From Cohaesibacter sp. ES.047 (GTDB lineage: Bacteria > Pseudomonadota > Alphaproteobacteria > Rhizobiales > Cohaesibacteraceae): 64,000 nt of DNA. The stretch spans positions 2,824,501 to 2,888,500 of the forward strand of contig NZ_LT907844.1 of NCBI RefSeq assembly GCF_900215505.1. The letters run 5' to 3'. The notes beneath the pieces were generated by a model. The model made no database searches, was not told the origin of the DNA, and saw only the letters and a list, made by a program, of their open reading frames with translations. Position numbers and translations under genes: made by a program. Below, one piece after another: positions 23,824 to 42,597 of the stretch. The stretch's first letter is position 1; each line of letters opens with the position of its first letter.

Positions 23824-24106
23824 GTTGCCAAGCGTTCGACCAAAAGCTGTGATTTAGGGTTTTGGCCGAACGCTCCAAGCCTACGTAATCGGGCTACCAC
23901 TTATGCCGGCTTGAGCGAGCCGCCAAGCGTCAAGCGTATCCGTGGCGGTTCGCGCAACCGAGTTTGAAAGCCAACCACGATAGCCATTTGGAAACCTCCT
24001 GTGGCTGTCATGTCCGCTGCGGTTCATTTCAACTCTGCTGAAAGCCAAACCCAAGGCGATTTTGGCTGGCTTCCAGCGGGTGACTATGCTTTTGCTGTCG
24101 CTTAAA

Positions 24107-25360: not shown

Positions 25361-25400
25361 GGTCTGATGTTCCTTTTGGAGCAGGTCTCGCAGGGCCGGA

Positions 25401-25427
25401 AAGGCTGCCGGGGGACACGGCAGCCTT
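25401..25427 (-). promoter_or_regulatory. perfect hairpin in the efeO-efeB gap
   Basis: AAGGCTGCCG (25401-25410) and CGGCAGCCTT (25418-25427) are exact complements with a 7-base loop. No T run follows on the minus strand, so partial attenuation or mRNA end protection is more likely than full termination. It would lower EfeB relative to EfeUO. Confidence 0.45.
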
Positions 25428-25436
25428 AGGGCGCAA

Positions 25437-26633
25437 TCAGTCAGCGGTTGCGACTTTTTCCGCGATACGGGAAAGAGGCTCCTGCAGTGACTGGATTGCC
25501 TGGCTCAGTTTGACGGTGTCTTCCGCTCTCAGCTCGTCGGAATAGAGCTTGTAGCCACCGGGAACAGAGGCATCCCGATATCCGTCCAGAAGGGTCCGGA
25601 CCTTTTCAAACTCTGCGCTGACCCGCTTGGACAGATCGGCGTCGATTTTTTCCATGCCCGGCTGCAGATAGGCAAAAGCCTGCTGCGCGCCCTCCACATT
25701 GCCCGCAAAATCGAGCATATCGAAGTGGCTGTAGGCTTCTTCCTCGCCGGTGATCTTGGTGTTCTGAACCTCTTCGAGCAGGTCCGCTGCACCATTGGCC
25801 AGATCTTCAGGCAGATACTCAAGGGTCGGAGACACGTCGTCGAGCAGCTGCACATTCTTGAGCAACTCGGCAGCATAGGCCTTGGTCTGATCCGTGATCT
25901 TGCCCGCCTCGAACAGATCCCGTTCGATGGCGTGGTATCCATGCCAGCCAACTTCGGGGTCGATATTGGAGGCACGCATATCGATCAGATAGTCAAGATT
26001 GCCGTGGTTGTCTGTCGCGTCAAAGCCATCGAGCACGAAGCCGTCGACATCGGATTCAACGCGTTCATAAAATGGGCGCGCCAGCGGATAGTCGTGTTTG
26101 GCTTTTTCAAGATCGCCTGCATCGATGTCGTCCTTGAGGCGGGAAACGGCAACAACCATGGCGTCGATCGTTTCATTGACATATTGGGCGTAGCCGTCGG
26201 TGCCTTCTTCAAGGATCTTGGAGATCGTGCCGGTTGGGCGCGGAGCTGCCTCACCGGTTACGCTGAAAGCAACCTTGTCTTCTTTCGCACCCGGGCAATA
26301 GATTTCATAATTGCCGCCACCAAGGGTGACCGTGAAGGCCACAGTCGGTAGGCCCGGAGCAAGGTTTTCCTTCTCCCCGATAATGCGGTTGCCGTTCAGC
26401 AATTCGACTTCGGTGAGAGCCGTGGCTGTCTTGTTGGTAACGGAGAAGGTGACGGGACCTGCCTCGACGCTGGATTTGTCGAGCACACAGGCACCGCCAT
26501 TGTCATCTGTCAGGGTGACGGCAACCTGTTCGACTTCCGCGGCTGCAAGTGCGCTGCTTAAGCCGCCGAGGATCAGAAACGTGGATAGGGATGTGGTGGC
26601 AAGAATGGTTTTGGATAAAGAATTACGCTGCAT
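25437..26633 (-). CDS. efeO: iron uptake protein EfeO (cupredoxin plus M75 domain)
   Basis: A 398-residue periplasmic protein. Residues 1-31 form a signal peptide (MQRNSLSKTILATTSLSTFL...SALAAA). An EfeO-type cupredoxin domain covers about 32-130. The M75 imelysin-like domain fills the rest and has the metal-binding HxxE motif in WHGYHAIERDLFE. It receives iron and passes it to the EfeU permease. The ATG at 26633 overlaps the end of efeU by 11 bp and has AAAGGACATC upstream. The in-frame ATG at 26735 would lie deep inside efeU. Confidence 0.93.
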   Translation of the reverse strand: MQRNSLSKTILATTSLSTFLILGGLSSALAAAEVEQVAVTLTDDNGGACVLDKSSVEAGPVTFSVTNKTATALTEVELLNGNRIIGEKENLAPGLPTVAFTVTLGGGNYEIYCPGAKEDKVAFSVTGEAAPRPTGTISKILEEGTDGYAQYVNETIDAMVVAVSRLKDDIDAGDLEKAKHDYPLARPFYERVESDVDGFVLDGFDATDNHGNLDYLIDMRASNIDPEVGWHGYHAIERDLFEAGKITDQTKAYAAELLKNVQLLDDVSPTLEYLPEDLANGAADLLEEVQNTKITGEEEAYSHFDMLDFAGNVEGAQQAFAYLQPGMEKIDADLSKRVSAEFEKVRTLLDGYRDASVPGGYKLYSDELRAEDTVKLSQAIQSLQEPLSRIAEKVATAD

Positions 26634-28257
26634 GATGATGTCCTTTTGCTGCAGTGGCTTCGGCGTCTTGGCCAATGTTGGAATGAAAACGCTCCGGAGC
26701 GAGGCGTCGGGCTTGAACGAGATTCCGGGCGCCAAACAACGCCAGGAAGAGGGAAATGAAGGCTAGAATGGAGGGCAGAGTACGAGCCCAGAACATCCAC
26801 TCATCCTGATCGATCTTGAACTTGATGAGAGCTGTCTGGACACGCGAGATGTGGTCTTCGCTGACATGCCAACGCCCCACAGGCAGAACCAGATCGGTTT
26901 TCAGATCCTGCTGTATCGAGCGCACGCTCAGGGTTCTGGGGGATTGCAATCCACCATCGGAGAGGGTCATCGTCAGCGCATTTCGCCCAGAGGCATCGAG
27001 CAGAATGCCGTTGGTCGTCCAGACGGTTGCCTTGAGCGTGTGCACCCAACTGACATGATAGGGGCCGGGATAACGCGTCGGGTTGAGGCCGATGGGCTTG
27101 CGGCCGCCTGACAATTTGACGATTTCAGAATAGGTCAACTCTTGAGGCAAACCGGACGGCTCGCTTTTGTTGATGATATCCCACAACCGGGATGCCAGCC
27201 CGTCATGCTCACCGCGGGTGGCCTCAGACTGGGGGAGGGGCAGCGTCAGCTTGCCGGTGTTGTCGGGTCGTGCCAGAACCAGAGCGCCCTGATCCGAAAG
27301 GCTGGCGCTGGCGACATCAGCCTTGCGAACCATCACTCTTGCTGCGGTGTTCGGAAGTCGGATCGAAGGGGTTGGCGAGAGAAGGAAAAGCAATGCGGAA
27401 ACAGCAAGGCATAGCAGAGCAACAGCGATCTTGATCCGGCCTGCACCAACCAGACCCGGTCGATGGGATTGCGGCCAATAGATGAAGAGCGCAACAGGCA
27501 CCAGATAGAGACACCAGCCAAGTCCCTCGATCAGTCTGGGATCGGAAGGGATGCCCAGCATTCCTGTTATCAGCGCAGAGCGCATGGTCCCGGCTGCGAC
27601 AAGCCACGACAGATCGAGTATCTGTTGCTGGCCCGCATTGAGCCAACCAGCCTCATGCGCCGTTCGCAAGGTGGAAACACACAGGCCCGCGGCCACCAGA
27701 ATAAGAAAGGCACCCGTTATGCGGAAAAATCGGGAGAGATTGATTTTGACCCCACCGATATAGATGCCCCAACCAATCACGACTGACAGCAACAACCCCA
27801 GTGTTGCGCCGACTGCGGCCCAAGCTGCGGATTGCGCCACGGAAAAGGTCGCCAGAAGAAATACGCTGGTTTCAAAACCTTCTTTGAGGACTGCGAGGAA
27901 GGCCATGCTGGCCAGTGCGTAGGAGCCCGGTTTGGAAAGGGACGCGGCGGCCCTTGCTTCAAGCTCGCCTCTCATCGCGCCGCCTTGGCTGTTCATCCAC
28001 GCGATCATGCCAGTCACAAAGAAGATTGCGACGACGCCAATCAGCGTTTCCAGCGCCTCCTGCTGGGCTTGGGACAGGGCCTTTTCGACCATGTGCAGGC
28101 CTACGCCGACCAGAAGGGAAATCAAGATAGCCAACAGGACGCCAATCCACATCGGCCGCATGCTTTGATGATTTCGATTGAGGAAAGCCGCGATGATCCC
28201 AACGATAAGCGAGGCTTCCAACCCTTCACGCAGGCCAATGACGAGAGTAGCCAGCAT
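26623..28257 (-). CDS. efeU: FTR1-type iron permease EfeU with long C-terminal extension
   Basis: A 544-residue inner-membrane permease. The two REXXE-type iron motifs are LREGLEASLIVG near the N-terminus and LKEGFETSVFLL near residue 120-130. The first about 275 residues (seven membrane segments) are the standard EfeU. An additional about 230-residue, mainly soluble, region (about 285-495) and a last membrane helix (FWARTLPSILAFISLFLALFG) follow. The protein ends in a His-rich tail. The extension may be periplasmic. The ATG at 28257 has AAAGGACGC upstream. It is first gene of efeUOB. Confidence 0.9.
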   Translation of the reverse strand: MLATLVIGLREGLEASLIVGIIAAFLNRNHQSMRPMWIGVLLAILISLLVGVGLHMVEKALSQAQQEALETLIGVVAIFFVTGMIAWMNSQGGAMRGELEARAAASLSKPGSYALASMAFLAVLKEGFETSVFLLATFSVAQSAAWAAVGATLGLLLSVVIGWGIYIGGVKINLSRFFRITGAFLILVAAGLCVSTLRTAHEAGWLNAGQQQILDLSWLVAAGTMRSALITGMLGIPSDPRLIEGLGWCLYLVPVALFIYWPQSHRPGLVGAGRIKIAVALLCLAVSALLFLLSPTPSIRLPNTAARVMVRKADVASASLSDQGALVLARPDNTGKLTLPLPQSEATRGEHDGLASRLWDIINKSEPSGLPQELTYSEIVKLSGGRKPIGLNPTRYPGPYHVSWVHTLKATVWTTNGILLDASGRNALTMTLSDGGLQSPRTLSVRSIQQDLKTDLVLPVGRWHVSEDHISRVQTALIKFKIDQDEWMFWARTLPSILAFISLFLALFGARNLVQARRLAPERFHSNIGQDAEATAAKGHHHAA

Positions 28258-28412
28258 TTTGCGTCCTTTGTGACCAGACAAGTGGCTGACAGAAAGCGCA
28301 GCTCATCTGATCAGCGGTTAACACCCCAACCAACAAGACAAAGCCTCTCCGTTCCGCCTTCCGGGAAGGGAGGCAGTTGGGCACGTTCTGACAGTGCTGT
28401 TGGTTGTGAGTT

Positions 28413-28437
28413 ATTTATGAGTTACGTACTCATAAAT
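28413..28437 (-). promoter_or_regulatory. palindromic iron-responsive operator (IRO-box-like) before efeU
   Basis: ATTTATGAGT and ACTCATAAAT are perfect 10-bp inverted arms around TACGT. The centre reads TGA, nine bases, TCA, which fits the TGA-N9-TCA iron-responsive box bound by RirA in Rhizobiales. It lies about 155 bp upstream of efeU on its strand. RirA control is inference; a Fur-family protein such as Irr or Mur is the alternative. The rest of the gap up to 28906 shows no gene. Confidence 0.6.
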
Positions 28438-28906
28438 TAGGAAAGGGTGCCGCTCTGTCAATCTATATGATTTAGAACGCTTCTACGAACGAACGCCATC
28501 GGCGCATTTCTGGGAAAAAATGGCTGTTGAAATATGAGTAAGAGTTTCATATTTTCCGTCCCGATTTGCTGCCGAGTTGCTTAATGACCCCATCGTTCAG
28601 GAGATTGATGCAGAAGCGCCCCCAAATTTTCTGCCCGTCAGCAAGCAGAGGTCTACGGACCAAATCAGCAAAATTGGTTGGATGCGTATTCCAATTCCAT
28701 TCGGGCAATCGGCACCATGTTGCCGTTCGCGCCGTGGGCCGAGTTTCGCGCGCCCAGATGGCTTCTAGTGCGCGATTTGACACCTAAAACTATTCTGTTT
28801 CACCCAAAATATATTTAGAACTGTTGATATGTACGTTGGCATAATGTGGGAATTTGTCGCATATATGCCCGAATAAGGGAATCTGCGAATAGGAGAATGT
28901 GGGAAA

Positions 28907-29740
28907 ATGTGTGCAAATGTGAGAAATGAGAGCAAACGGACGGTATTCACCAAAATGCTGAAAGCAGACAGACTCAAGGAAATCGAACGCCACCTGAAAG
29001 AAGACGGAAGTATCGTCGTCTCAAAGCTCAGCGCGCAGTTTTCTGTCTCGGAGGAAACGATCCGCCGAGACTTGGACAGCCTGAGCCAAACCCTCTCGTT
29101 CAGGAGAGTGCATGGTGGCGCCTATCTCTTGAAGGGATCTGACAAAGAAGTCCCAGCCACGTTGCGGGAAACATTCTTTACAGCAGAGAAATGTCTCATC
29201 AGTCAGAAGGCAGTGGGCGACATTTCAAACGGCGACACAGTCATGCTCGACAGCAGCACAACCGCATTGTTTATCGCGCGTGAGCTGTTCAGGCAGAAAA
29301 AGAACGTCCTTCTTATCACCAACTCCCAAAAGATCATTTCTGAAGTTCCCGAAACAGGGGGTGTCGAGGCGATTTGCATTGGCGGACATCTCAGAAAAGA
29401 AACCTGGTCGTTTGTCGGCCCAGCTGCGTTCGACGCGCTTCGAGGGCTCGCGGCGGACATGGCATTTGTCAGTTGCACATCCATCCACCCGCAGTTCGCA
29501 ATGACGGACAACAACGAAGGTGAGGCCGCAATCCGCAGGCTCATGATCGAAAGATCCGGTCGATCGACGCTTGTTATCGACCATACCAAATTCGAAAAAC
29601 CTGCCACTCACAAAATCTGTGAGTTCGACGAGCTAGACGAGATCATTCTGGATTCTGCCGTCGCGGAAGATCTGCTGGAACCAATTCGACAAACCGGGCT
29701 TGGACTGCACGTCTGTTCTGACGCCAAGCCGGAAGAATAA
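28907..29740 (+). CDS. DeoR-family transcriptional regulator
   Basis: A DeoR-type sugar regulator of up to 277 residues. The N-terminal HTH is VSKLSAQFSVSEETIRRDLDSL and the DeoR sensor domain has DGDTVMLDSSTTALFIARELF-like NGDTVMLDSSTTALFIA, the IGGHLRKETWSFVGPAA stretch and the effector-binding pattern of sugar-phosphate binding regulators. An ATG at 28955 (MLKADRLKEIERHLKE) is an equally good start by homology. The upstream DNA holds repeated GGGAAtyTG-like words, possible operator half-sites. It heads the cluster to 38285. Confidence 0.85.
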   Translation: MCANVRNESKRTVFTKMLKADRLKEIERHLKEDGSIVVSKLSAQFSVSEETIRRDLDSLSQTLSFRRVHGGAYLLKGSDKEVPATLRETFFTAEKCLISQKAVGDISNGDTVMLDSSTTALFIARELFRQKKNVLLITNSQKIISEVPETGGVEAICIGGHLRKETWSFVGPAAFDALRGLAADMAFVSCTSIHPQFAMTDNNEGEAAIRRLMIERSGRSTLVIDHTKFEKPATHKICEFDELDEIILDSAVAEDLLEPIRQTGLGLHVCSDAKPEE

Positions 29741-29776
29741 GCCGCTCAACAAGCAACCGAAAAATCGAGAAACGCC

Positions 29777-30943
29777 ATGGAAGACTTCAATTTTTGCAGT
29801 AGAACGAAAATAGTTTTTGGTAGAGGAAAAGAGAATGAAGTCGGCCTTCAGGTGAAGCCATTCGCGGATAAGGTTCTCCTTCATTATGGTGGCGATTATC
29901 TGGAAAAGAATGGAATTCTCGATCGCATTGTTGGCTCTCTGAAAGCAAGCGGTGTTGAACCTGTCCTGTTTGATGGTGTGGTTCCCAATCCTAGATTGTC
30001 TGTTGTGAAGGAAGGCATCGCTCTTTGCCGCAAGGAAGGGATTGGCTTCATTCTCGCAATTGGTGGCGGTAGTGCCATTGACTCTTCCAAGGCCATCGCG
30101 CTCGGCGTGCCCTATGAAGGGGATGTGTGGGATTTCTATACCGGCAAGGCTGAGCCTGAAACGGCCCTGAAAGTCGGGACCATTCTGACCATTCCGGGCT
30201 CTGGTTCGGAAATGTCCGAAAGCAGCATCATCACCAATGAGGCTGATGATACCAAATACGGTATCGACAATGCCCTGATCGTGCCTGAATTCTCGATCCT
30301 CAATCCCGAGATGTGCTTCACCATTCCGCCATTCTTCATGGCCAGCGGGCTTGCAGATATTCTCTCGCATCAGTTCGAGCGTTACTTTACGCCAACAAAA
30401 TTCTGTCTGTTCAGTGACCATCTCCTCGAAGGGGCGATGCAGGCGGTTATTGCCCTTGCTCCAAAGATCCTTGAGGCGCCGCAAAACTACGATTATTGCG
30501 CTGAATTTATGTGGCTGGCCACAATTTCTCACAATGGGGTTCTGGACGCCGGTCGACAGTCAGATTGGGCTTCGCACCGGATCGAACACGAGATTAGTGC
30601 CCTTTACGATATCACGCATGGTGCGGGGATGGCGATCATCTTCCCTGCATGGATGAAGCATGTGAAGTCCACCGATCTGGATCGTTTTGCGCGCCTTGGC
30701 ACCAGAGTATTCGGAATTGATCCAAACGGTCGGAGCAAGGATGAAATCGCTGATCTGACCATCAAGGCCGTAGCAGATTTCTTTGCTTCCCTGAATCTGA
30801 AGATCTCGTTGGCCGATGCAAAAGTGCCAACGGACAGATTTGATGAAATGGCATCCAAGGCATTGGGCCGCAGCGATGCGATCGGCCGTTTCAGGAAGCT
30901 CGCTCACGACGACATTGTCGCGATACTCAAGCTGGCCGTCTAG
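29777..30943 (+). CDS. iron-containing alcohol dehydrogenase (BdhA/YqhD-like)
   Basis: A group III NAD(P)H-dependent alcohol dehydrogenase of 388 residues. GGGSAIDSSKAIALG binds the cofactor. Metal ligands are Asp and His in GLADILSHQFERYF and the His pair in ASHRIEHEISALYDITHGAGMAI. It probably reduces an aldehyde. In this cluster the natural substrate would be methylthioacetaldehyde or acetaldehyde formed by the aldolase at 37.7 kb, as in the DHAP shunt. It starts 37 bp after the regulator. Confidence 0.88.
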   Translation: MEDFNFCSRTKIVFGRGKENEVGLQVKPFADKVLLHYGGDYLEKNGILDRIVGSLKASGVEPVLFDGVVPNPRLSVVKEGIALCRKEGIGFILAIGGGSAIDSSKAIALGVPYEGDVWDFYTGKAEPETALKVGTILTIPGSGSEMSESSIITNEADDTKYGIDNALIVPEFSILNPEMCFTIPPFFMASGLADILSHQFERYFTPTKFCLFSDHLLEGAMQAVIALAPKILEAPQNYDYCAEFMWLATISHNGVLDAGRQSDWASHRIEHEISALYDITHGAGMAIIFPAWMKHVKSTDLDRFARLGTRVFGIDPNGRSKDEIADLTIKAVADFFASLNLKISLADAKVPTDRFDEMASKALGRSDAIGRFRKLAHDDIVAILKLAV

Positions 30944-31115
30944 GCACCAGACTTGGAAATCTCTGTGAAACTTTAGCGAATAGAACCGCTGAAAGGCAGG
31001 CCAGAATCCCCGGTGAATCAATTCCGAACTCAAAAATAAATCAATAACCACGCACGTTTCGTCTCAAAGACAATTGTGCGTGGTGACCAAAATGGACGTG
31101 TCTTGGGAGGAAATC

Positions 31116-32429
31116 ATGACACCAAAATCCAATGCCAAGGGGCTACTGCCTCTGCTGTTTTTCTTGGTAATCTACATCTTTACCGGTGTTGCGACCGGCA
31201 ACTTTGGCGCGATGCCTTTGTTGGTTGGGTTCATGGCTGCATTCGGTGTGGCTCTTTGCCTGGACCGTCTGGATAAAAAAACCAGTTTTGATGAAAAAGT
31301 CATGCTGTTCTCAAAGGCTGGTGGCGAGGAAACCATCATTCTGATGGTCGTTATTTTCCTGTTGGCTGGCGCATTCTACTCCGTAGCCGATGCCATGGGG
31401 GCGGTGAGTTCAATCGTCAATCTTGGTTTGTCGGCCATGCCAAGCAATATGATCTTGCCGGGCCTGTTTCTGATTGGCTGTGTGTTGTCCTTCTCAATGG
31501 GGACATCCATGGGAACGGTGACGGCACTCGCCCCGATCGGCGTGGGGATTGTGGAGCAGACAGGTGCCAATATGCCGCTGGTCATGGCTACCGTTATCGG
31601 CGGGGCGATGTTTGGTGACAACCTGTCCTTTATCTCGGACACGACCATCGCGGCCGTGAAAACGCAGGACGTAAGCCTGCGCGGTAAGTTCAAGATGAAT
31701 GGTCTTATCGTCCTACCCGCTGTTATCTGTACTGTTATCATTCTGGCAATGATTCCAATATCTTCAGGCGTATCTGTTGAATCCGGATCTTACAGCCTCG
31801 TCAACATCATACCCTATGCAGCAATTATCATCACGGCTTTGATCGGATGGAATGTCATGGCTGTGCTGGGGATCGGCATTGGACTGGGTGTTGCGGTTGG
31901 CCTGTTCAATGGCAGTTTCAATCTGGTTGAAATGCTCGACGTTCTTCAGCGCGGCATGGGCTGGATGGAAAATCTGGCGATCATCGCCGTTGTCGTTGGT
32001 GGTCTCGTTGGGCTGATGAAATACTACGGCGGGATCGACTACCTTCTGAAAACAGTAACGAGCATGGTCAAAGGCAAGATCGGCGGCCAGTTCGGCATTG
32101 GTGCTCTTGTGTCCTTGATCACGGTCTCCACGACCAACAACACCATCTCTATTCTGGCCGCGGGCCCTCTGGCAAAGGACATCTCTGCGGAATATGAGAT
32201 CGATCCAACGAAAACGGCGGCATTGCTTGATATCTTTGCGGCTGGCTTTCAGGGGCTCTTGCCTTATGGCGGGCAGTTGCTTCTGGCTGCAGGTCTGGCG
32301 AAAATTTCACCGGTCGAGATCATGCCTTACGGCATCTATCAGATCCTGATGATCGTCTTTGCAAGCCTTGCAATTTTCCTTGGCAATTCAGCACCCAAAA
32401 TCAAGCCGACACCGGCTGCTGGTGCCTAG
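31116..32429 (+). CDS. NhaC-like carrier (ion transporter superfamily)
   Basis: A 437-residue membrane protein with about 11-12 hydrophobic helices and the NhaC/DcuC-type fold. Marks are LFLIGCVLSFSMGTSMGTVTALAPIGVGI, GGAMFGDNLSFISDTTIAAV and STTNNTISILAAGPLAKDI. The ATG at 31116 is chosen for the GGGAGGAAAT site 4-13 bases upstream. Annotation transfer gives Na+/H+ antiporter, but position inside a catabolic cluster points to uptake of a sugar or nucleoside-derived substrate. This is inference. Confidence 0.8.
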   Translation: MTPKSNAKGLLPLLFFLVIYIFTGVATGNFGAMPLLVGFMAAFGVALCLDRLDKKTSFDEKVMLFSKAGGEETIILMVVIFLLAGAFYSVADAMGAVSSIVNLGLSAMPSNMILPGLFLIGCVLSFSMGTSMGTVTALAPIGVGIVEQTGANMPLVMATVIGGAMFGDNLSFISDTTIAAVKTQDVSLRGKFKMNGLIVLPAVICTVIILAMIPISSGVSVESGSYSLVNIIPYAAIIITALIGWNVMAVLGIGIGLGVAVGLFNGSFNLVEMLDVLQRGMGWMENLAIIAVVVGGLVGLMKYYGGIDYLLKTVTSMVKGKIGGQFGIGALVSLITVSTTNNTISILAAGPLAKDISAEYEIDPTKTAALLDIFAAGFQGLLPYGGQLLLAAGLAKISPVEIMPYGIYQILMIVFASLAIFLGNSAPKIKPTPAAGA

Positions 32430-32451
32430 ACGACTGAACGTCTTAAGAAAA

Positions 32452-32489
32452 AAGGACGCGGCTTTGAGACTAATAACTCCCGCGTCCTT
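32452..32489 (+). promoter_or_regulatory. hairpin between the carrier and mtnA
   Basis: AAGGACGCGG (32452-32461) and CCGCGTCCTT (32480-32489) form a 10-bp perfect stem with an 18-base loop. The TCCTTCC tail is not a clean T run. It lies 23 bp past the carrier stop and 69 bp before mtnA, and may reduce read-through or stabilise the upstream mRNA. Confidence 0.5.
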
Positions 32490-32557
32490 CCCCGCCTACA
32501 GGATTTTAAATCCCGCAATTTGCGTGATCGCTTCAAGTTTGCAGAAAGGAGTTCGTC

Positions 32558-33610
32558 TTGGAAAGACAAGATAAAGACCTCGGTTTCCTTTTGCGTTTTG
32601 AAAATGTTGCTTGGTACGAAAATGGATCCGTCCGTATTCTAGACCGGCGCGTTTACCCCAGAAAAATCGAATTTGTCGAATGCGTCAGGCACGAAGAGGT
32701 TGCCCAGGCGATTGCCGACATGGTGACCCAAAGCGCAGGGCCCTACACCGCAGCCAGCATGGGGATGGCCCTTGCCTGCCATGAGGTTCGTGGCCGACCA
32801 CAAGCCGAGCAACTAAGCCACCTGAAAAAGGCGGCCTATACGCTCTCCCATGCGCGCCCAACCACCGTCAATCGGATGACGCTCATAACGGGAGGCTGTC
32901 TCGACGTTGCCAGAACGGCCTTGGAAGAGGGCAGGGCGGCAGATCAGGCCGTGCTCGACCACACGATTGATTCAATGAACCGGCGCTATGCCAAGATCAG
33001 TCAGGTGGCCGAGTATCTGGTTTCTCTGTGGCCTCAGAATGGCACAGTAATGACCCAGTGCTATGGCGAAACAATCGTTGGCACGATGCTGCGGGAGGCT
33101 CGCAACAAGGGCAAGAATGTCAAACTCTTCTGCCCTGAGACCCGTCCTTTCCTTCAAGGGGCGCGGCTGACTGCAAGCGTTGCGAATGATCAGGGCGTTG
33201 ATGTGACGGTGATCACCGACAACATGCCGGCCACGGTCATGGCAACCAAGGGCATTGATGTCTTTACATCCGCCGCCGACAGCATTTGCAGAGACGGCCA
33301 TATCGTCAACAAGGTTGGTACGCTGCAGATTGCCATCGTCGCCCATCATTTCGGCGTTCCCTATTTCGTCACGGGCATTCCTGACAAAGAACTGCTCACC
33401 ATAAACGATGTCCGAATAGAAGAACGTGATCCTACCGAGGCCCTGAGCTTCAATGGCGTCAAGAATACCGCTGACGGCGTGAAGGGCTTTTATCCGGCCT
33501 TTGACGTGACGCCAGCAGGGCTCGTCAGTGCGGTTATCACGGACAAGGGGCCGTTCGCTCCTCAGGATCTGAACCGCTACTTCAGCCTTTCCGATACCGC
33601 TTACTGGTAA
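32558..33610 (+). CDS. mtnA: S-methyl-5-thioribose-1-phosphate isomerase-like protein (MtnA/eIF2B family)
   Basis: A 350-residue aldose-phosphate isomerase of the MtnA family. TTG start with AAAGGAG 9-15 bases upstream. The catalytic Cys168 is in MTQCYGETIVG and Asp241 in AADSICRDGHIVNKVGTLQIA, the pair known from Bacillus MtnA (Cys160, Asp240). HLKKAAYTLSHARPTTVNRM is the substrate-binding strand. It would convert methylthioribose-1-phosphate, or 5-deoxyribose-1-phosphate, to the ribulose form. GETI in place of the usual GxLAT motif suggests a divergent branch. Confidence 0.87.
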   Translation: MERQDKDLGFLLRFENVAWYENGSVRILDRRVYPRKIEFVECVRHEEVAQAIADMVTQSAGPYTAASMGMALACHEVRGRPQAEQLSHLKKAAYTLSHARPTTVNRMTLITGGCLDVARTALEEGRAADQAVLDHTIDSMNRRYAKISQVAEYLVSLWPQNGTVMTQCYGETIVGTMLREARNKGKNVKLFCPETRPFLQGARLTASVANDQGVDVTVITDNMPATVMATKGIDVFTSAADSICRDGHIVNKVGTLQIAIVAHHFGVPYFVTGIPDKELLTINDVRIEERDPTEALSFNGVKNTADGVKGFYPAFDVTPAGLVSAVITDKGPFAPQDLNRYFSLSDTAYW

Positions 33611-33652
33611 TCAAATTTCTCGCAAGCTCATCTTTGAAAAGAAGAAGACGCA

Positions 33653-34867
33653 ATGACCAAGTTCGAAACCCATTTCAAAATGACCGACACCGACGCCATA
33701 GAATATGCCCGGACACAGTTGGATTATTTTGATGAAGATGCGCAGCTCACCTCCAGCATGATTGCTGACGGCAATATCAATTATGTTTTTCGTGTCGTCG
33801 ATGAGAAGAGCGGCAAGTCCCTCGTGCTCAAGCACGCCGACGTGTTGCTCCGTTCATCCGGGCGCCCGCTGGATGTGTCCAGAAGCCGGATCGAGGCCCG
33901 GATTCTCGACATTCAATCGAAGCTGGCCCCTGATCTTGTGCCGCGGGTCTTGAAATATGATGAGACCATGTGTGTTCTGGTCATGGAGGATATCTCTGAA
34001 TTCAAAAATCTGCGCTATGAGCTGCTCAAGCGGATTACCTTTCCGCATCTGGCCGAAAACATCAGCACTTTCATGGTGGATACGATGGTCCCCACCACGG
34101 ACCTGGTGATGAATTCAGGTGAGAAGAAACGCCTCTCTGCGCAGTTTGTGAATGTCGATCTGTGCGATATTTCCGAGGATCTTGTCTTTACCGAGCCATA
34201 TATCGATTACAAGAGCCGGAACATCATTTCCGTTGGCAATGAGCAGTTTGTTCAAGAGCATCTTTATGACGATGAAGCCCTGCTTTTGGACGTCGGCAAA
34301 CTGAAGAACAATTTCAAGAACAACGCGCAAGCTCTCATTCACGGCGATCTTCATTCCGGTTCGATTTTCTGCAATCAGGCGGGGACCAAGGTCATTGATC
34401 CCGAGTTCGCGTTCTTTGGCCCCATTGGATACGACTTGGGCAATGTGCTGGCGCATCTGGTGTTCGCATGGGCGAATGCAGAAGCAACCGAGGCTGATCA
34501 GGCCATCCGCCAGACCTTTGCTGCTTGGTCGTCCCAGACGATCACAGACATCATCAACCTCTTTACCGCCAAGTTCATGGCTTCGCTCGAGAAGAACGTG
34601 GTTGAACCAACGGCCCGCTCGTCCGCCTTCAGGGAATGGTACACGGCGTCTGTTCTTCGGGATGCTGCCGCGAGCATGGGTATGGAGATCATCAGGCGCG
34701 TTGTGGGTGACACCAAGGTTCTCGACCTCACCTCGATCGGGGAAGGCGAGATCCGCCTTACTGCCGAACGGTCACTGATACGCATCGGAAAAGACCTGAT
34801 CCTGCAAAAGAATTTGTCAAAAGCCACCGAGCTCTGCCGCGAGCAACTGGCAAGCTTGCGCGTTTGA
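33653..34867 (+). CDS. mtnK: S-methyl-5-thioribose kinase
   Basis: A 404-residue kinase of the MtnK/aminoglycoside phosphotransferase fold. ATP-binding Lys in SLVLKHADVLLR, hinge MEDISEFKNLR, catalytic loop HGDLHSGSIFCN (His230, Asp232) and metal Asp in IDPEFAFFGPIGYDLGNVLAHL are all present. It phosphorylates C1 of 5-methylthioribose, and 5-deoxyribose in some bacteria. No other methionine-salvage genes (mtnB, mtnC, mtnD, mtnW) are in the window, which points to a carbon-recovery shunt. A strong hairpin follows the stop. Confidence 0.92.
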   Translation: MTKFETHFKMTDTDAIEYARTQLDYFDEDAQLTSSMIADGNINYVFRVVDEKSGKSLVLKHADVLLRSSGRPLDVSRSRIEARILDIQSKLAPDLVPRVLKYDETMCVLVMEDISEFKNLRYELLKRITFPHLAENISTFMVDTMVPTTDLVMNSGEKKRLSAQFVNVDLCDISEDLVFTEPYIDYKSRNIISVGNEQFVQEHLYDDEALLLDVGKLKNNFKNNAQALIHGDLHSGSIFCNQAGTKVIDPEFAFFGPIGYDLGNVLAHLVFAWANAEATEADQAIRQTFAAWSSQTITDIINLFTAKFMASLEKNVVEPTARSSAFREWYTASVLRDAAASMGMEIIRRVVGDTKVLDLTSIGEGEIRLTAERSLIRIGKDLILQKNLSKATELCREQLASLRV

Positions 34868-34873
34868 GACGGC

Positions 34874-34905
34874 CTCTCCGGGGCGGTGCTTTCGGCCCCG
34901 GAGAG
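34874..34905 (+). promoter_or_regulatory. GC-rich hairpin after mtnK
   Basis: CTCTCCGGGGC (34874-34884) pairs perfectly with GCCCCGGAGAG (34895-34905) around a 10-base loop. No T run follows. It lies 6 bp after the mtnK stop, before the dehydrogenase gene. An mRNA-stabilising or partial-stop role is likely; it may separate the mtnA-mtnK part from the later genes. Confidence 0.55.
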
Positions 34906-34941
34906 CGTCACTGCATGCTTGTGTTTTAGGGAATGAAAAAA

Positions 34942-35976
34942 ATGAGACGCGTATTACTGGTTTGCGAGTTGGAAGAAGACGGGAAAGAGTATCTTTCCAA
35001 GAACTACGATCTGCTGATGGCAGGGGCGGCGACGGGAGAATGCGATGAGCTGACCGAGGTTGCTCTTGCTGAGTTGATGGCATCTCACCAACCCCACATC
35101 TTGTTGGTGAATTCATCACCGGCAACAGCACGGGTGCTGGCTGCGTCAGACTGTCTCGAGCTGGTCATATGTGCGCGTGGAACGCCTAACAATGTGGATC
35201 TGAACTACTGCAGAGACAAGGGATTGCTTCTTTGCAGCACGCCTTCCAGAAATGCCAATTCTGTCGCGGAATTCACGATCGGGCTGATGATGGCAGCAAC
35301 GAGACAGATCCCGCAATCCATGGAAGCAATCAGGGATCACACGATTGTCCTTGAGGGAGATCCTCTTGACGGCGGCAGCAAGGATGTAACCTGGATCCAC
35401 TCGGATCTGCCCTACATCCCCTATGAGCGTTACAATTCGCTGGAGATCGCCGGGGCCACGCTGGGACTTGTCGGGCTTGGCTTTATCGGTGGCCTTGTGG
35501 CGGAAAAGGCCAAGGCCCTTGGTATGGAAATACTGGTCTATGACCCGTACCAGAACAAGGAAGCGTTGGCATCAAAGGGCTACAGGCTCGTTGAATTTCA
35601 GGAGCTTATCGAAGGCTCCGATGTGATCAGCCTGCACGCAAAGGAAACCGAGCAGACCCGGCATATCATCAACACCGAAGTTTTCAAAACCATGAAGCCC
35701 TCGGCCTACCTGATCAATACGGCCCGCGGGTCACTGGTCAATTACGATGATCTGAGGCAGGCGCTCAAAAGCAGGCAGATTGCCGGCGCTGCAGTCGATG
35801 TCTTTCCCTATGAGCCACTGCGGTCCAATGATCCGCTTATCAATACCCCCAACCTCACGATGACCCCGCACATCGCAGGCGCCAGCCGCAATGTGGTTCA
35901 GCATCACACGCGTATGGTCATGCGCTCGATCCACGATTTTGAAAATGGTGAAAAGCCGAAGTTCGCGGTCTTCTGA
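34942..35976 (+). CDS. D-isomer-specific 2-hydroxyacid dehydrogenase
   Basis: A 344-residue NAD-dependent dehydrogenase of the SerA/phosphoglycerate dehydrogenase-like type without an ACT domain. NAD motif GLVGLGFIGGLVAEKAKALGMEILVYDPY, catalytic Arg in INTARGSLVNYDDL, Glu in PYEPL and His in TPHIAGASRN are present. The ATG at 34942 is spaced better from AGGGA than the in-frame ATG at 34933. Its substrate is unknown. It might oxidise or reduce a 2-hydroxy acid made from the sugar backbone. It is not part of the known DHAP shunt. Confidence 0.85.
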   Translation: MRRVLLVCELEEDGKEYLSKNYDLLMAGAATGECDELTEVALAELMASHQPHILLVNSSPATARVLAASDCLELVICARGTPNNVDLNYCRDKGLLLCSTPSRNANSVAEFTIGLMMAATRQIPQSMEAIRDHTIVLEGDPLDGGSKDVTWIHSDLPYIPYERYNSLEIAGATLGLVGLGFIGGLVAEKAKALGMEILVYDPYQNKEALASKGYRLVEFQELIEGSDVISLHAKETEQTRHIINTEVFKTMKPSAYLINTARGSLVNYDDLRQALKSRQIAGAAVDVFPYEPLRSNDPLINTPNLTMTPHIAGASRNVVQHHTRMVMRSIHDFENGEKPKFAVF

Positions 35977-36036
35977 AAAATCGAAGGCGGCAGGGAACGG
36001 AAAAACAATCGCAACGAGAATGACTGGGTCAGGACA

Positions 36037-37605
36037 ATGAAAAAAGATTTGGTACTTGGACTGGATGTCGGCACGACAAATGTCAAAGCCCTGCTTGTTA
36101 CCGATCACGGGGACGTGCTCAGCGTTGCCTCCCGGCGCAACCCTGAAGAGACCCGTGTTCCGGGCCATTCGGAAACCGACATGGTCGGCCTATTCGAACG
36201 CTGTTGTGAAGTTCTTGTTGAGGCGATTGCCGATGTCGACGCCGCGCGGGTATGCGCACTTGGTGTGAATGGCCAAGGAGAAGGCCTCTGGGCACTGGAC
36301 GAAGACAAAAAGCCCGTCGGGCCCGCCATTCAATGGAATGACAGCAGAGCCAATGAAACCGCGCGCGAATGGAGCGCCAACGAACCAATACTCAAGGCCT
36401 TTCGAGCGGCGACAGGCAGCGTGCCCTTCAGTGGTGCGACCAGTGTCATTCTCGCTTGGCTGAAACAGCATCAAGCCGAAACCTACAATAAAGTCAGACA
36501 TGTATTCTGGTGCAAAGACTGGATACGGTTCTGCCTCTGTGGTGAGATTCTGAGTGACTATACGGATGCGTCAACGTCAACGCTGGATCTGGGCAAGCGC
36601 GATTGGGCCGTGGACCTGTTTAGCCAGCTTGGTATCAGCGAGGCCGCCAATTGGCTGCCGGATCTGAAGGAAAGCTATGAATGCGGCGGATACCTTCTGC
36701 CGGAAGTGGCTGAACGAACCGGTCTTCCCGCCGGATTGCCGATAGCTGTTGGCGCTCTCGACATCGTCGGAACCGCCATTGGCATGGGGGCGCAGTCGGA
36801 GGGCGATAGCTGCGTTATCCTCGGAACGACCTGTTGTTGTGAGACGGTGACCCGATTGGCGGAGACTGAACAAGGCTCCACAAGTGGTTTCGAGTGTTTT
36901 GCGATTGGTGAAAAATATATCAAAGTTACAGCATCCATGGCTGGCGGACCAAGTTTGGACTGGGCCATCAAAACCCTTCTGAGCGCTGAAGAGCAGAGCA
37001 GCACTGACCTGTTCGAAAAGATTGATCGGCGCGTCAAAGCACTGCCGCCCGTGCCGGAAGGAATCATCTTTCATCCCTATATCAGCGAAGCAGGAGAACG
37101 TGCGCCTTTTAATAACCCCGGTGCGAAAGCTCAGTTCTTCGGGCTGAACCAGAGCGCTGACAAGTGGTGCATGCTCAAGGCTGTCTACGAAGGTGTCGCC
37201 TTCTCGATTCAGGATTGTATCGGCGACTTGAAGGGCCGCTTGCTTTTGTCGGGAGGGGGAGCACGATCAGGCGTATGGCCCCAGATTATCGCGGATTGCA
37301 CGGGCCTTCCCGTTTTGACCTTCGATGAAGCGGAGAGTTGCGCTAAGGGGGCTGCCTTCTTCGCCTGCAAGTGCGCTCACCCCGAGTTGTCGTTCGGCGA
37401 CATCGCAGGCCGGTTCGAATGCTCCAACCAGACGTATCAGCCGCAATCAAACGCCCACTGGATCTACGAGGCTCATTTCCCATTCTACAGGGGAATCCGT
37501 GAGCAACTGGACGGTATATGGCGGCAACACCAGCGGTATCAGCAGAAACTGAGGACTGAGAAGCAAACAAATGCGAGCGAACAAGTCTCGTTTCCGCTTA
37601 ATTGA
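36037..37605 (+). CDS. FGGY-family carbohydrate kinase
   Basis: A 522-residue FGGY kinase with both RNase-H-like halves. The first phosphate loop is LGLDVGTTNVKALLV, the substrate region GVNGQGEGLWALDEDKKPVGPAIQWNDSRA, the catalytic Asp in GALDIVGTAIGMGA, and the ATP site LLSGGGARSGVWPQIIADCTG. It is nearest in look to xylulokinase, lyxokinase or erythritol kinase. A second sugar kinase next to MtnK implies that the cluster handles a second free sugar. The following aldolase gene starts 50 bp later. Confidence 0.87.
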   Translation: MKKDLVLGLDVGTTNVKALLVTDHGDVLSVASRRNPEETRVPGHSETDMVGLFERCCEVLVEAIADVDAARVCALGVNGQGEGLWALDEDKKPVGPAIQWNDSRANETAREWSANEPILKAFRAATGSVPFSGATSVILAWLKQHQAETYNKVRHVFWCKDWIRFCLCGEILSDYTDASTSTLDLGKRDWAVDLFSQLGISEAANWLPDLKESYECGGYLLPEVAERTGLPAGLPIAVGALDIVGTAIGMGAQSEGDSCVILGTTCCCETVTRLAETEQGSTSGFECFAIGEKYIKVTASMAGGPSLDWAIKTLLSAEEQSSTDLFEKIDRRVKALPPVPEGIIFHPYISEAGERAPFNNPGAKAQFFGLNQSADKWCMLKAVYEGVAFSIQDCIGDLKGRLLLSGGGARSGVWPQIIADCTGLPVLTFDEAESCAKGAAFFACKCAHPELSFGDIAGRFECSNQTYQPQSNAHWIYEAHFPFYRGIREQLDGIWRQHQRYQQKLRTEKQTNASEQVSFPLN

Positions 37606-37655
37606 AATCTTAAACTGTTGCGACGAGAGAAGCAGGCAATAGACGAGGAAATACA

Positions 37656-38285
37656 ATGAATTATAATGACTTCAAAACTGAACGAGAGTGCGTTGCCTAC
37701 TTCATGCGGCGTCTTTATCAGAACCAGTTGACGACGTGCTCGGGTGGCAACCTGAGTATGCGGCTCGATGAAAAACATGTGATCATCACGCCGTCCAGTT
37801 TGGATAAGGGGGTGATCGAAGCCGGTGAAATCGGGCTTGTGACCATTGATGGCGAGAACCTGACACCGCATCTCAAATCCAGCATTGAAACGGGCATGCA
37901 TCTGGAAATCTTTCGCCGTCGTCCAGACGTCAAAGCCGTTGTGCATGCACACCCGGTGATGGCGTCCACCTTTGCGGCGGTCGATAAGGACATCAATACG
38001 ACTCTCACCGCAGAATCCTATTTGGTCTTGGGGAATGTTGTGAATGCCCCATACGCCCTGATGGGATCCAAAGAGCTTTCAGTGATCGTTGGTAAAGCTG
38101 CCGAGAACAGCAATGTTATCGTCATGAAAAACCACGGCATTACCACCGTCGGCAAGTCCATGCTCGACGCTTTCGACAAAATGGAGTTGTTGGAAGCCTC
38201 CGCCAAAATGACCATCAATGCCGCCATTCTTGGTGGAGTGAGCCCGCTCACTGCTGAACAACGTGCACAACTTGATAACTGGTAG
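37656..38285 (+). CDS. class II aldolase (fuculose-phosphate aldolase-like)
   Basis: A 209-residue zinc aldolase of the AraD/FucA fold. The zinc ligands His97 and His99 (VVHAHP) and His160 (MKNHGITTVG) are visible, with TCSGGNLSMR and SSIETGMHLEIFRRRPDVKAVVHAH in front. In the DHAP shunt, Ald2 of this family cleaves methylthioribulose-1-phosphate or deoxyribulose-1-phosphate to DHAP plus an aldehyde. The distance to mtnA/mtnK on the same strand supports that role but does not prove it. The 236-bp gap to 38521 holds no gene. Confidence 0.88.
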   Translation: MNYNDFKTERECVAYFMRRLYQNQLTTCSGGNLSMRLDEKHVIITPSSLDKGVIEAGEIGLVTIDGENLTPHLKSSIETGMHLEIFRRRPDVKAVVHAHPVMASTFAAVDKDINTTLTAESYLVLGNVVNAPYALMGSKELSVIVGKAAENSNVIVMKNHGITTVGKSMLDAFDKMELLEASAKMTINAAILGGVSPLTAEQRAQLDNW

Positions 38286-38521
38286 GGTCATGCAGTGAGT
38301 TGTTCCCCGTCAGCGCGTGTGGCTCCAAATAGGGCAATTTGCGAAGAGAGGTCGAATGCCACTGAGAACTGACCCGCGAGAAATTATTCATATGGAACTG
38401 AAATAGGTATCGTAATTGATATCTGTTTCAGGAGGTTATGATGCCGGGTTCTTTCGCCCATCGATCATCTGGTTGCTGAAATTGTTGCACTTTGCTCGAA
38501 TTGACTAAGTCTTCCATGACG

Positions 38522-39409
38522 TCAAAACCCGGACACTCGACAGATTGGTCCGGCACGCACGGGCAGCTGTTTGACTAAAAGGCCACCAGCGGCGGGTTGC
38601 TCATCAAGTGCCTCTGGTCCAAGAAAACGCCGCTGACATGTCACGAACAGGCTCGAGCCGTCTTTGCCGCCGATTGTCACCGCCGTCGGGCGCGAGACAG
38701 GGGCCTGATGCCGCCCCAGGAGACGACCGGATGGGGAGAGATGCAACACCGCACCCGAGCCAACCACCGCAACCCAGAAATTTCCATCTGCATCCATGCA
38801 GGCGCTATCAAGCGTATCACCCGGATTGGTGCGGTAGATTGTTCGGGAGCTGATTTCCGCACCGGTCGCCGGATCGACTTCAAGCATTTCCAAAACACCG
38901 CTCGGGGAATCGGTGAACAATAGATCCTGCCCGCTCCCGCACGGAACAATCGCATTGGGAATCTGCACTCCCTCACGGACCACGTGAATACTGCCATCAA
39001 AATCGCGCCGATAGAGCCGTCCGATGGCTTTCCCGGAAAGGGTCATATCCATAGAGCCGAACCATAGGCGACCGAGTCGGTCCGGCCGGCCATCATTGAG
39101 GCGCACTGTTGGGCGGTCACTTTCCGTATCCGATTGCTGTTCCCAGTTCCCGTTTTCGGGAGCATAGGTCCAGAGACCGTCTTCGAGCCCCAGAACCAGT
39201 CGCCCGCTATCGGCGAATGTCACAAAACCGGGCTGTGAGGGCGTAGGAACAACTCGGCTGGACCCGTCTTGCGTCGTAGCAAGCAACCGCTGAGCCTGAA
39301 TGTCGATCCACCAGACACAGCAGCGGGCTTCATCCCACAGAGGCGACTTGCCCGTGATCGCCATAGGCTGGGAAAGCAGCTCGAAAGGAGCTTCAGTCTG
39401 CTGAAGCAT
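38522..39409 (-). CDS. SMP-30/gluconolactonase-like protein
   Basis: A 295-residue beta-propeller of the SMP-30/gluconolaconase/LRE family, expected to hydrolyse a sugar or acid lactone. Typical segments are RLNDGRPDRLGRLWFGSMD, IPNAIVPCGS and LDSACMDADGNFWVAVVG, which carry the Asn and Asp metal ligands. The usual first ligand Glu in GEGPVWD-like motifs is replaced: here the sequence is ITGKSPLWDEA, with Lys. Metal binding may be altered. Its start overlaps the end of tctA by 17 bp, so it is last in this operon. Confidence 0.8.
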   Translation of the reverse strand: MLQQTEAPFELLSQPMAITGKSPLWDEARCCVWWIDIQAQRLLATTQDGSSRVVPTPSQPGFVTFADSGRLVLGLEDGLWTYAPENGNWEQQSDTESDRPTVRLNDGRPDRLGRLWFGSMDMTLSGKAIGRLYRRDFDGSIHVVREGVQIPNAIVPCGSGQDLLFTDSPSGVLEMLEVDPATGAEISSRTIYRTNPGDTLDSACMDADGNFWVAVVGSGAVLHLSPSGRLLGRHQAPVSRPTAVTIGGKDGSSLFVTCQRRFLGPEALDEQPAAGGLLVKQLPVRAGPICRVSGF

Positions 39410-40925
39410 TTTGCATCTCCGAGGGCGACAGTCGCCTTCCGGGAAGAAGTCTGCGTCTTGTTTCCTTTGGCAAAATCGCCCAAAGGATCACGATGAGATC
39501 AATGAACAAAATGGCCATGGCAATCGGACGTTCGGCGAAAATGGAGAGGCCATCTTGTGAGAGCAGAAGTGAACGCCGCAGATTTCCCTCGGCGATGGGG
39601 CCGAGAATGACACCAATCACGATAGGCGAAAGCGGATACTGGAACTTGCGCAGCACATATCCGACGATACCGAACAGAAAGGCCATCCAGAGATCATAGA
39701 CCGAAGACTGGATCGCATAGACGCCGATCATCGACATCAGAAGCACCGAGGGCACCAGATATTGCTTGCGCAGTTTGAGCACGGAGACAAAGATCGGCGT
39801 CATCAGAATGCCGAGCACAAACAGAAAGACGTTGGCGAGTAGGTAAGCCAGAAACACCCCGCCGACCACATCGCCACTGAGTGAGAAGAGCTGCGGGCCG
39901 GGTTGCAGCCCAAGCAGCATCAAGGCGCCCATCAGAACGGCACAGGCAGAATCGCCAGGGATCGCCAGTGCCAATGTGGGAATAAGCGCACCACCACAAC
40001 AGGCGTTGTTGGAGGATTCGGTCGCGACCACGCCGCCTATAGCGCCTTGCCCATAAGCCTCTTCGGGCTTCGCCCGTGCCTTGGCGATGGCATAGGAGGT
40101 GAAGGACGCGATGATGCCACTGGCGCCGGGCAAGGCACCAAAAAAGGTGCCGATGATTGAAGAGCGGAGCAGGTTCCAGCGATGGCCTAAGGTCAGAAAC
40201 AGAGATCGGAAGGAGACCTTGGCGTTGAGCACCTTTGGTGTCGCTGACAATCGGCCTTCTTCGATCTGATAAGCGGCCTCGGAGATGGCAAACAGACCAA
40301 CAACAATGGCCACGATATGGATGCCGCCCGACAGGTTGGAATCTCCGAAGGTGAAGCGTTGGGCGTTTGACATGGGGTCGGTGCCAACCACGGCGATCAG
40401 GATGCCCAGACATCCGGTCAGCAGTCCTTTAGTTGTCGATTCCGAAGAGACCACCGCTATAGCCATCAGCCCCGTCACGGCGAGGGCAAAGTATTCTGGC
40501 GGGCCAAAATTCACGGCGATGCTGGCCAGCATCGGTGCAAAGAAGACCAGGATCACCCCACCGAACATACCGCCAATGGCGGACGCTGAGATGGCGACGC
40601 CGATGGCATCCCCTGCGCGTCCCTTTTTGGCAAGAGGGTAACCATCCAAGAGCGTCGCTGCAGCAAGAGGCGTGCCGGGAATACGCAGCAAGATCGCCGA
40701 GATGGCACCACCACAGGAGCCCCCGACGTAAATGGCGATCAACATGCCCATGCCGGCAACGGGCGGCAGATAGAATGCAGCAGGCAACAACAGGATGATG
40801 CCCATGAGGGGGCCAAGACCCGGAAGTGCGCCAACGAGAAGACCACCAGCGCAGCCGAGCGCAACTAACAGAATGACCGACGGAGTGGCAACCAGATCAA
40901 CACCGGACAGTAGAAGATCAAACAT
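39393..40925 (-). CDS. tctA: tripartite tricarboxylate transporter large permease (TctA)
   Basis: A 510-residue integral membrane protein with about 12 segments. TctA marks are GALPGLGPLMGIILLLPAAFYLPPVAGMGMLIAIYVGGSCGGAISAILLRIPGTP, and the second half has FGALPGASGIIASFTSYAIAK, EAYGQGAIGGVVATESSNNACCGGALIPTLALAIPGD. With TctB and TctC it imports an organic acid by cation symport. It starts 4 bp after tctB. Confidence 0.93.
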   Translation of the reverse strand: MFDLLLSGVDLVATPSVILLVALGCAGGLLVGALPGLGPLMGIILLLPAAFYLPPVAGMGMLIAIYVGGSCGGAISAILLRIPGTPLAAATLLDGYPLAKKGRAGDAIGVAISASAIGGMFGGVILVFFAPMLASIAVNFGPPEYFALAVTGLMAIAVVSSESTTKGLLTGCLGILIAVVGTDPMSNAQRFTFGDSNLSGGIHIVAIVVGLFAISEAAYQIEEGRLSATPKVLNAKVSFRSLFLTLGHRWNLLRSSIIGTFFGALPGASGIIASFTSYAIAKARAKPEEAYGQGAIGGVVATESSNNACCGGALIPTLALAIPGDSACAVLMGALMLLGLQPGPQLFSLSGDVVGGVFLAYLLANVFLFVLGILMTPIFVSVLKLRKQYLVPSVLLMSMIGVYAIQSSVYDLWMAFLFGIVGYVLRKFQYPLSPIVIGVILGPIAEGNLRRSLLLSQDGLSIFAERPIAMAILFIDLIVILWAILPKETRRRLLPGRRLSPSEMQNASAD

Positions 40926-40928
40926 ATC

Positions 40929-41471: not shown

Positions 41472-41498
41472 TGATGCTCCCTCCCTTCGCTTCGGTGG

Positions 41499-42497: not shown

Positions 42498-42597
42498 TTG
42501 GTCCTCCCTTGGATCCGGGGCCTTCCCGTTTCGGACAAGGCCTCGCTGTTTTTGCCTTGTCAGTGCGCCTCCTCGCGCCCGGACCGGCATTGCTGCT

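Follow-up and report, generated by a model that had tools for sequence, protein, structure and literature searches.

Which compound is broken down by a gene cluster in which a kinase, an isomerase and an aldolase resembling those of 5-deoxypentose disposal stand beside a second sugar kinase and a dehydrogenase? The question is raised by positions 28907-38285 of a 64,000-nucleotide stretch of the Cohaesibacter sp. ES.047 genome (the whole stretch is called here the window), where eight open reading frames (ORFs), all on the + strand and separated by intergenic gaps of 36-130 bp, follow one another from 5′ to 3′ in the order given below. We regard the chances as about even that they form a catabolic cassette, spreading horizontally, whose substrates are imported sugars of the 5-deoxypentose type and whose two arms would converge on one aldolase.

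28907..29740, +, DeoR-family regulator, probably controlling the cassette (Pfam DeoRC 142.9 bits, HTH_DeoR)
29777..30943, +, iron-containing alcohol dehydrogenase (Fe-ADH), probably reducing the aldehyde that the aldolase releases (Pfam Fe-ADH 150 bits)
31074..32429, +, NhaC-type carrier, probable sugar importer (Pfam Na_H_antiporter 64.2 bits, cut-off 23)
32558..33610, +, MtnA-like aldose-1-phosphate isomerase of a divergent clade (VTQS in place of RGAP, TQCYGE in place of the CNAG motif; TTG start)
33653..34867, +, MtnK-like sugar-1-kinase (TIGR01767; in the tree with kinases encoded beside DrdA-type aldolases)
34933..35976, +, NAD-dependent enzyme of the 2-hydroxyacid dehydrogenase (2HADH) family (altered substrate loop RGTPNN, intact R-E-H triad)
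36037..37605, +, FGGY carbohydrate kinase from the XylB side of the family (WNDSR motif and conserved Asp, presumably with their usual roles)
37656..38285, +, class II aldolase of a separate clade (Glu aligned with Glu76 of DrdA, three conserved His)
28752..38299, no strand, extent of the cassette as a unit (limits of the DNA match with the congener G396)

Gene content and recurrence of the cassette

The sequence-only reading of this DNA had described eight genes of these families running in the same direction, which is borne out by the ORFs, by Pfam and NCBIfam models and by two congeners, G396 and G400. Since the same eight genes recur in both, the set is no chance neighbourhood. The FGGY kinase and the 2HADH had been taken for additions to a known pathway; both are indeed present, but they are a recurrent pair and not a local addition. 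In fact, among 80 loci surrounding relatives of the window kinase in other genomes, 19 encode both proteins (called here module loci), none encodes the FGGY kinase alone, two encode the 2HADH alone (L098 and L110) and 59 encode neither. At the threshold used, a single aldolase lies near the kinase in each of the 19 module loci.

These loci are the best 80 of 199 kinase relatives; many come from related genomes and two from one genome, so that the counts do not represent independent events and Fisher values computed from them are descriptive. Presence was decided by identity thresholds (for instance, at least 30% for DeoR and at least 45% for the NhaC carrier), and in 22 of the 80 loci the sequence ends less than 6 kb from the kinase on at least one side. 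On this basis, the isomerase is found up to 9 kb from the kinase in 71 loci, the aldolase in 60, DeoR in 37, the alcohol dehydrogenase in 33, the NhaC carrier in 31, the 2HADH in 21 and the FGGY kinase in 19. No hint of the substrate came from the eight loci in which no aldolase lies near the kinase; one of these also lacks the isomerase, and one is cut at a contig end. Cassette-type loci were found in Firmicutes, Fusobacterium, Spirochaetes and a few alphaproteobacteria.

Within the genus, the source genome being a single contig of 5.11 Mb, a close copy of the window kinase is encoded by two of 17 congeners (91% identity in G396 and 78% in G400), and the cassette is thus present in three of 18 genomes, its own included, in surroundings that differ. 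The DNA match with G396 covers window positions 28752-38299 at 91%, and that with G400 covers 28897-38284 at 75%, beginning 10 bp before the DeoR start codon and stopping one base short of the end of the aldolase stop codon. For the left neighbours in the window (efe-like, named by eye), matches lie in G388 and G397, for which no cassette match was listed; for the right neighbours, they lie at other places in G396 and G400. Shortened pieces of window 24025-24787 and 25855-26192 adjoin the cassette in G396 (L166:3633-4732), so that its left flank is not wholly different from that of the window; these pieces suggest a deletion or a joint move. In a class-wide search of 385 genomes, the source included, no kinase match of another genome exceeded 38% identity, and the nearest relatives among named genomes are in Pseudovibrio (kinase 61%), followed by Vallitaleaceae, Clostridia, Treponema and others. 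The distribution among congeners, the surroundings and the distance of the nearest matches point to horizontal movement of the cassette. Searched against phage records, the isomerase gave three distant matches (about 28%).

The FGGY kinase, the 2HADH, the Fe-ADH, the carrier and the aldolase all score below every NCBIfam cut-off listed (for the aldolase, 25 of 31 families were listed). For instance, the best NCBIfam model for the Fe-ADH is PRK15138 'alcohol dehydrogenase' (233 bits, cut-off 645), which we take to be YqhD, and the carrier reaches 52.5 bits against the NhaC equivalog (cut-off 370); their Pseudovibrio counterparts (L037) are 71% and 72% identical, respectively. An Rfam scan of 24000-44000 gave no RNA element at the gathering score. 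Terminator-like sites numbered 19, against a shuffled mean of 10.7 (sd 3.3), and promoter-like sites eight, against 7.1, which is uninformative.

The core enzymes and their counterparts elsewhere in the genome

The kinase passes the MtnK equivalog TIGR01767 with 366.6 bits (cut-off 275). For comparison with characterised enzymes, 398 genomes from the class of an Enterococcus genome were searched with the DrdA sequence of PDB 6btd, and 14 neighbourhoods centred on aldolases 63-78% identical to it were read; ten of them encode a kinase 43-48% identical to that of the window. In a tree of 42 rows, these ten and the window kinase fall in a clade of 34 (100/100), the other eight rows being methionine-salvage, E. 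coli and ordinary proteobacterial kinases. By score and clade, that is, by sequence only, the protein belongs with the 5-deoxyribose/methylthioribose (MTR) kinases MtnK and DrdK.

The isomerase does not follow the kinase. It passes the subfamily model PRK05720 (346.9 bits, cut-off 271) and, narrowly, TIGR00524 (190.9 bits, cut-off 185.85), but it stays below the MtnA equivalog TIGR00512 (205.4 bits, cut-off 279). In a tree of 40 rows it lies in a separate clade of 21 (100/100), whose stem measures 4.16 changes per column; VTQS replaces RGAP in all 21 rows and QC[FY] replaces the CNAG motif in 20, and the aligned rows keep the catalytic Cys and Asp, RPT, QGARLT and NK. We take the substrate and catalytic positions of MtnA to be Arg51-Gly-Ala, Arg94, Cys160, Gln199, Asp240 and Asn250-Lys251. 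An isomerase is present in eight of the 14 DrdA-type neighbourhoods, always with the canonical RGAP, while the 75 full-length isomerase ORFs of the 80 loci have VTQS in 67 cases, ITQS in two, RGAP in five and another motif in one. By clade, score and motifs, the window protein does not qualify as an MtnA or DrdI isomerase, and, judging from the two trees, the kinase and the isomerase have different histories. In the Brachyspira pilosicoli locus (L114:11221-12272), the isomerase gene is read as two ORFs of 88 and 256 aa and may be broken or misassembled.

The aldolase matches the Pfam class II aldolase domain with 147 bits and the haloarchaeal ribulose-1-phosphate aldolase model with 93.9 bits (cut-off 300). 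Its phylogeny against Ald2, set by the sequence-only reading as a refutation test, went against an Ald2 assignment: in a tree of 90 rows, the window protein, its two congener copies and those of Brachyspira (L114) and Pleomorphochaeta (L082) form a clade of their own (100/98), all five from loci with 2HADH and FGGY kinase. DrdA-like, FucA, E. coli Ald2 and ordinary proteobacterial aldolases fall in another fork (66 rows, 99/93); the window protein also lies outside MtnB and AraD, and it cannot be classed as an Ald2 or DrdA aldolase. Some deeper forks in between are weak (87/16, 91/87, 83/66), and long branches were flagged in this tree as in those of the FGGY kinase and the 2HADH. The protein keeps the Glu aligned with Glu76 of DrdA and the HxH and NHG histidines; TPSSLDK and SIETGMH take the place of the PSG and PSSE of DrdA types. 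Of 18 module-locus aldolases in the tree, 15 lie in a 58-row fork (96/85) with DrdA-like rows, one (L053) in its sister group, and those of L082 and L114 with the window. As E. coli Ald2 itself groups with FucA (100/99), the clade of an aldolase does not by itself fix its substrate.

A second, ordinary mtnK-mtnA-regulator-aldolase locus lies at 457-462 kb of the contig (L117:10523-14686). Its MtnK scores 462.5 bits, its MtnA passes the equivalog model (425 bits) and its aldolase falls with FucA and Ald2; a sugar ATP-binding cassette (ABC) transporter and two adjacent transketolase-like genes are also found there (transporter, regulator and transketolases were named by eye). The absence of mtnBCD, claimed from the sequence alone, holds for the cluster, which has none of the three. 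Acireductone dioxygenase (ARD, mtnD) gave no match in the genome with PF03079, a model that found matches in five of 14 control genomes; mtnC was not searched for, and of the four class II aldolases besides that of the window only the second-locus one was compared with NCBIfam, with no MtnB model among those listed at E 1e-25. LuxS gave no match in the genome. A methylthioadenosine (MTA) phosphorylase is encoded (522.5 bits, cut-off 437), and endogenous MTA consequently needs no kinase; a kinase-based cassette would thus make most sense for an imported free sugar.

The FGGY kinase and 2HADH pair

Two kinds of FGGY kinase occur within cassette-type loci. The first, on the XylB side of the family, forms a clade of 11 rows that includes the window genus, Brachyspira (L114) and L107, together with Klebsiella, Streptomyces, Halapricum, Halomarina and one of the Extibacter proteins; the window protein reaches 292 bits against the XylB equivalog (cut-off 380) and is thus not assigned as a xylulokinase. 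The second comprises the remaining module loci (18 rows, 100/100, stem 3.15), groups with LsrK (96/89, long branches flagged) and has N[IV]DxR, as in LsrK. The 2HADH tree splits much alike, with the window genus beside L114 (100/99) and a group of 18 rows (100/100), the exception being L107, which joins Klebsiella and Extibacter (95/74). The occurrence of two FGGY families in the same context suggests that the same two activities may have been recruited there repeatedly.

The pair-associated 2HADH proteins have the R[AG]xPxN substrate loop in 27 of 28 cases, and none of the ten other 2HADH ORFs of the loci has it. All 28 keep the R-E-H triad of the D-2-hydroxyacid dehydrogenase family. SerA, the phosphoglycerate dehydrogenase 1wwk and two glyoxylate reductases have other residues at the loop. 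The shared loop suggests one wider subfamily. A loop two residues shorter was also considered, and was rejected by ungapped alignments.

Both families are also found near each other in K. pneumoniae (L124), Extibacter (L175), Streptomyces (L131) and Halomarina (L125), with the same dehydrogenase loop in four of five proteins; unlike the cassette, these pairs have no cassette-type kinase or isomerase in the stretches read. In K. pneumoniae NZ_OP378648.1 (L124:15377-18519), mtnB (332.9 bits, cut-off 226) is directly followed by FGGY and 2HADH within a methionine-salvage region, with ordinary mtnK and mtnA about 10 kb from the pair; the annotated genes next to mtnB are different ones in the regions read from Enterobacter (L126) and K. 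aerogenes (L127). Extibacter muris (L175:5016-13921) encodes in a row a PF04198 regulator, FGGY, 2HADH, aldolase, 2HADH and FGGY, a doubled unit adjoined by Dak1 and Dak2. Additionally, genes for pyridoxal phosphate enzymes of Cys/Met metabolism were seen in the loci of three lineages (L107:6762-7970 and L096:12416-13612, tested with Pfam, and the start of L006, by eye), perhaps a link to methionine or methanethiol chemistry.

Proposed pathway, alternatives and known systems

From gene content and clade membership we infer a route with its substrates, the role of its carrier and the direction of its dehydrogenase. The NhaC-like carrier would import a 5-deoxypentose-like sugar, the DrdK-like kinase would phosphorylate it at C1, and the divergent isomerase would yield a ketulose-1-phosphate. 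The aldolase would cleave this compound to dihydroxyacetone phosphate (DHAP) and a short aldehyde, which the Fe-ADH would reduce; DeoR would control expression. The 2HADH and the FGGY kinase would form a second arm, turning another C5 compound into a phosphate that enters the same aldolase. The simplest candidate for its substrate would be a free 5-deoxyketulose or its polyol. B. thuringiensis DrdK is reported to act on 5-deoxyribose and MTR, whereas on 5-deoxyribulose, ribose and other compounds no activity was detectable (PMC6079011), so that a free ketulose would need its own kinase. 5-Fluoro-5-deoxyribulose has been reported as a shunt product in Streptomyces culture (PMC7408626), and 5-deoxyribitol is reported to be excreted by rats (PMC6079011).

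Several observations weigh against this two-armed cassette. NhaC carriers are not known to import sugars. RGAP, presumably part of the substrate site, is lost from the isomerase, whose substrate may therefore differ, and the aldolase stands outside the DrdA/Ald2/FucA part of its tree. Neither kind of FGGY kinase groups with FucK; they lie on the sides of XylB and LsrK, enzymes that phosphorylate the CH2OH away from the ketone, which argues against a simple ketulose-1-kinase. Finally, the pair is absent from most of the 80 loci, NhaC, alcohol dehydrogenase and DeoR each occur in a minority of them, and FGGY and 2HADH are also paired at sites that lack the cassette-type kinase and isomerase.

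Alternatively, the operon could combine two pathways: the dehydrogenase, FGGY kinase and aldolase would by themselves degrade a polyol or ketose, and cleavage of the compound made by the kinase and isomerase would fall to a different aldolase, such as the one encoded at the second locus. Apart from its distance from DrdA, the window aldolase lies next to a Rhodobacter aldolase (98/92, long branch) encoded beside an FGGY kinase and a short-chain dehydrogenase/reductase (SDR) oxidoreductase, and in Extibacter FGGY, 2HADH and aldolase stand together without the cassette kinase and isomerase nearby. We nevertheless find this rather unlikely, as a single aldolase is near the kinase in every module locus, 15 of the 18 such aldolases in the tree belong to the fork of DrdA-like rows, and in Pleomorphochaeta (L082) a window-type aldolase accompanies FGGY and 2HADH proteins of the other lineages. 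Less probable still is a core for plain ribose, running from ribose-1-phosphate through ribulose-1-phosphate to DHAP and glycolaldehyde. Haloarchaea use a ribulose-1-phosphate aldolase route of this kind, the substrate motif of the isomerase is changed and the aldolase weakly matches the haloarchaeal model; its score is far below the cut-off, however, and the kinase groups with DrdK types, for which no ribose activity was detected (PMC6079011).

A dicarbonyl of the autoinducer 2 (AI-2) type, 4,5-dihydroxy-2,3-pentanedione, could also be phosphorylated by the FGGY kinase and, after a carbonyl shift and reduction by the 2HADH, give a 5-deoxypentulose-1-phosphate to be split by the aldolase. The LsrK-like FGGY family with its motif, the altered dehydrogenase loop and the PF04198 sugar-binding-domain regulators beside FGGY-2HADH in L107 and L175 speak for this idea, which phosphorylation of the far CH2OH would also suit better. 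We hold it to be quite improbable: LuxS is found in six of 22 module genomes (those of the 19 loci and three of the window genus, all three without it) against 11 of 28 others (from 29 of the 61 non-module loci), and self-made AI-2 was rejected as a source because LuxS is not enriched with the module. Ordinary methionine salvage from MTR, for which the kinase score could be cited, is barely credible and was rejected for lack of an ARD match in the genome; there is also no mtnBCD in the cluster, the isomerase is below the MtnA equivalog and an ordinary locus exists elsewhere. A further reading, which we hold less likely than the two-armed cassette, would be a hitherto undescribed third route of C5 by-product metabolism. 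Its isomerase would be redesigned, some carriers would add an FGGY-dehydrogenase arm, and its substrate would be neither 5-deoxyribose nor MTR; a 5-deoxyketulose, a 5-deoxypentitol and an AI-2-type dicarbonyl are conceivable.

Reactions of S-adenosylmethionine commonly leave 5-deoxypentoses behind. The cassette occurs in several phyla; its isomerase has been replaced, as has the aldolase in some carriers, and its kinase-dehydrogenase pair comes in two kinds. Together these features point to a so far unnamed C5 substrate, and thanks to the pairing a few enzymes would suffice to test the question. In the open-access literature searched, we found neither FGGY together with methylthioribose, nor FGGY with class II aldolase and 2-hydroxyacid dehydrogenase, nor any three of methylthioribose, FGGY, aldolase and hydroxyacid dehydrogenase; for 5-deoxyribose together with NhaC, a single chemistry paper was listed. 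The three-step kinase-isomerase-aldolase pathway is known from B. thuringiensis (PMC6079011) and E. coli (PMC10986504, PMC12632272) and discussed in PMC6302742; PMC6079011 shows clusters with sugar transporters, and the words FGGY and antiporter are absent from its main text.

The match with the DHAP shunt proposed in the sequence-only reading thus stands for the kinase-isomerase-aldolase-alcohol dehydrogenase logic, the carrier and the kinase clade, and is not supported for the isomerase and the aldolase; by these two enzymes the cassette cannot be classed as a DHAP shunt, though it may work like one. With methionine salvage (mtnKABCD), it has the kinase and isomerase superfamilies in common, the ARD match being absent and the isomerase below its equivalog. 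The E. coli shunt, mtnK-mtnA-ald2, is alike in overall chemistry and in having a carrier and a regulator at the locus (PMC10986504, PMC12632272); the proteins are, however, only 35% (kinase), 27% (isomerase) and 29% (aldolase) identical, and the E. coli carrier is of the GRP family instead of the NhaC type. A query with the E. coli mtnK-mtnA-aldolase locus matched 1228 of 5426 complete E. coli genomes, 1073 of them over at least 80% of its length. One record labelled E. coli Nissle 1917 (NZ_CP022686.1, L180) has the mtnK-mtnA-aldolase-GRP carrier locus, and Nissle is named as being without the shunt in PMC10986504; either the label or that statement may be wrong. The drdKIA system for 5-deoxyribose disposal in Bacillus thuringiensis (PMC6079011) was compared through the 14 neighbourhoods described above, DrdA itself being the 187 residues printed for 6btd. 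It resembles the cassette in the kinase clade, the order of the chemistry and the metal-ligand and Glu positions of the aldolase; in contrast, the isomerase and aldolase of the cassette belong to other clades, and the cassette adds the NhaC carrier, the Fe-ADH, DeoR, the 2HADH and the FGGY kinase.

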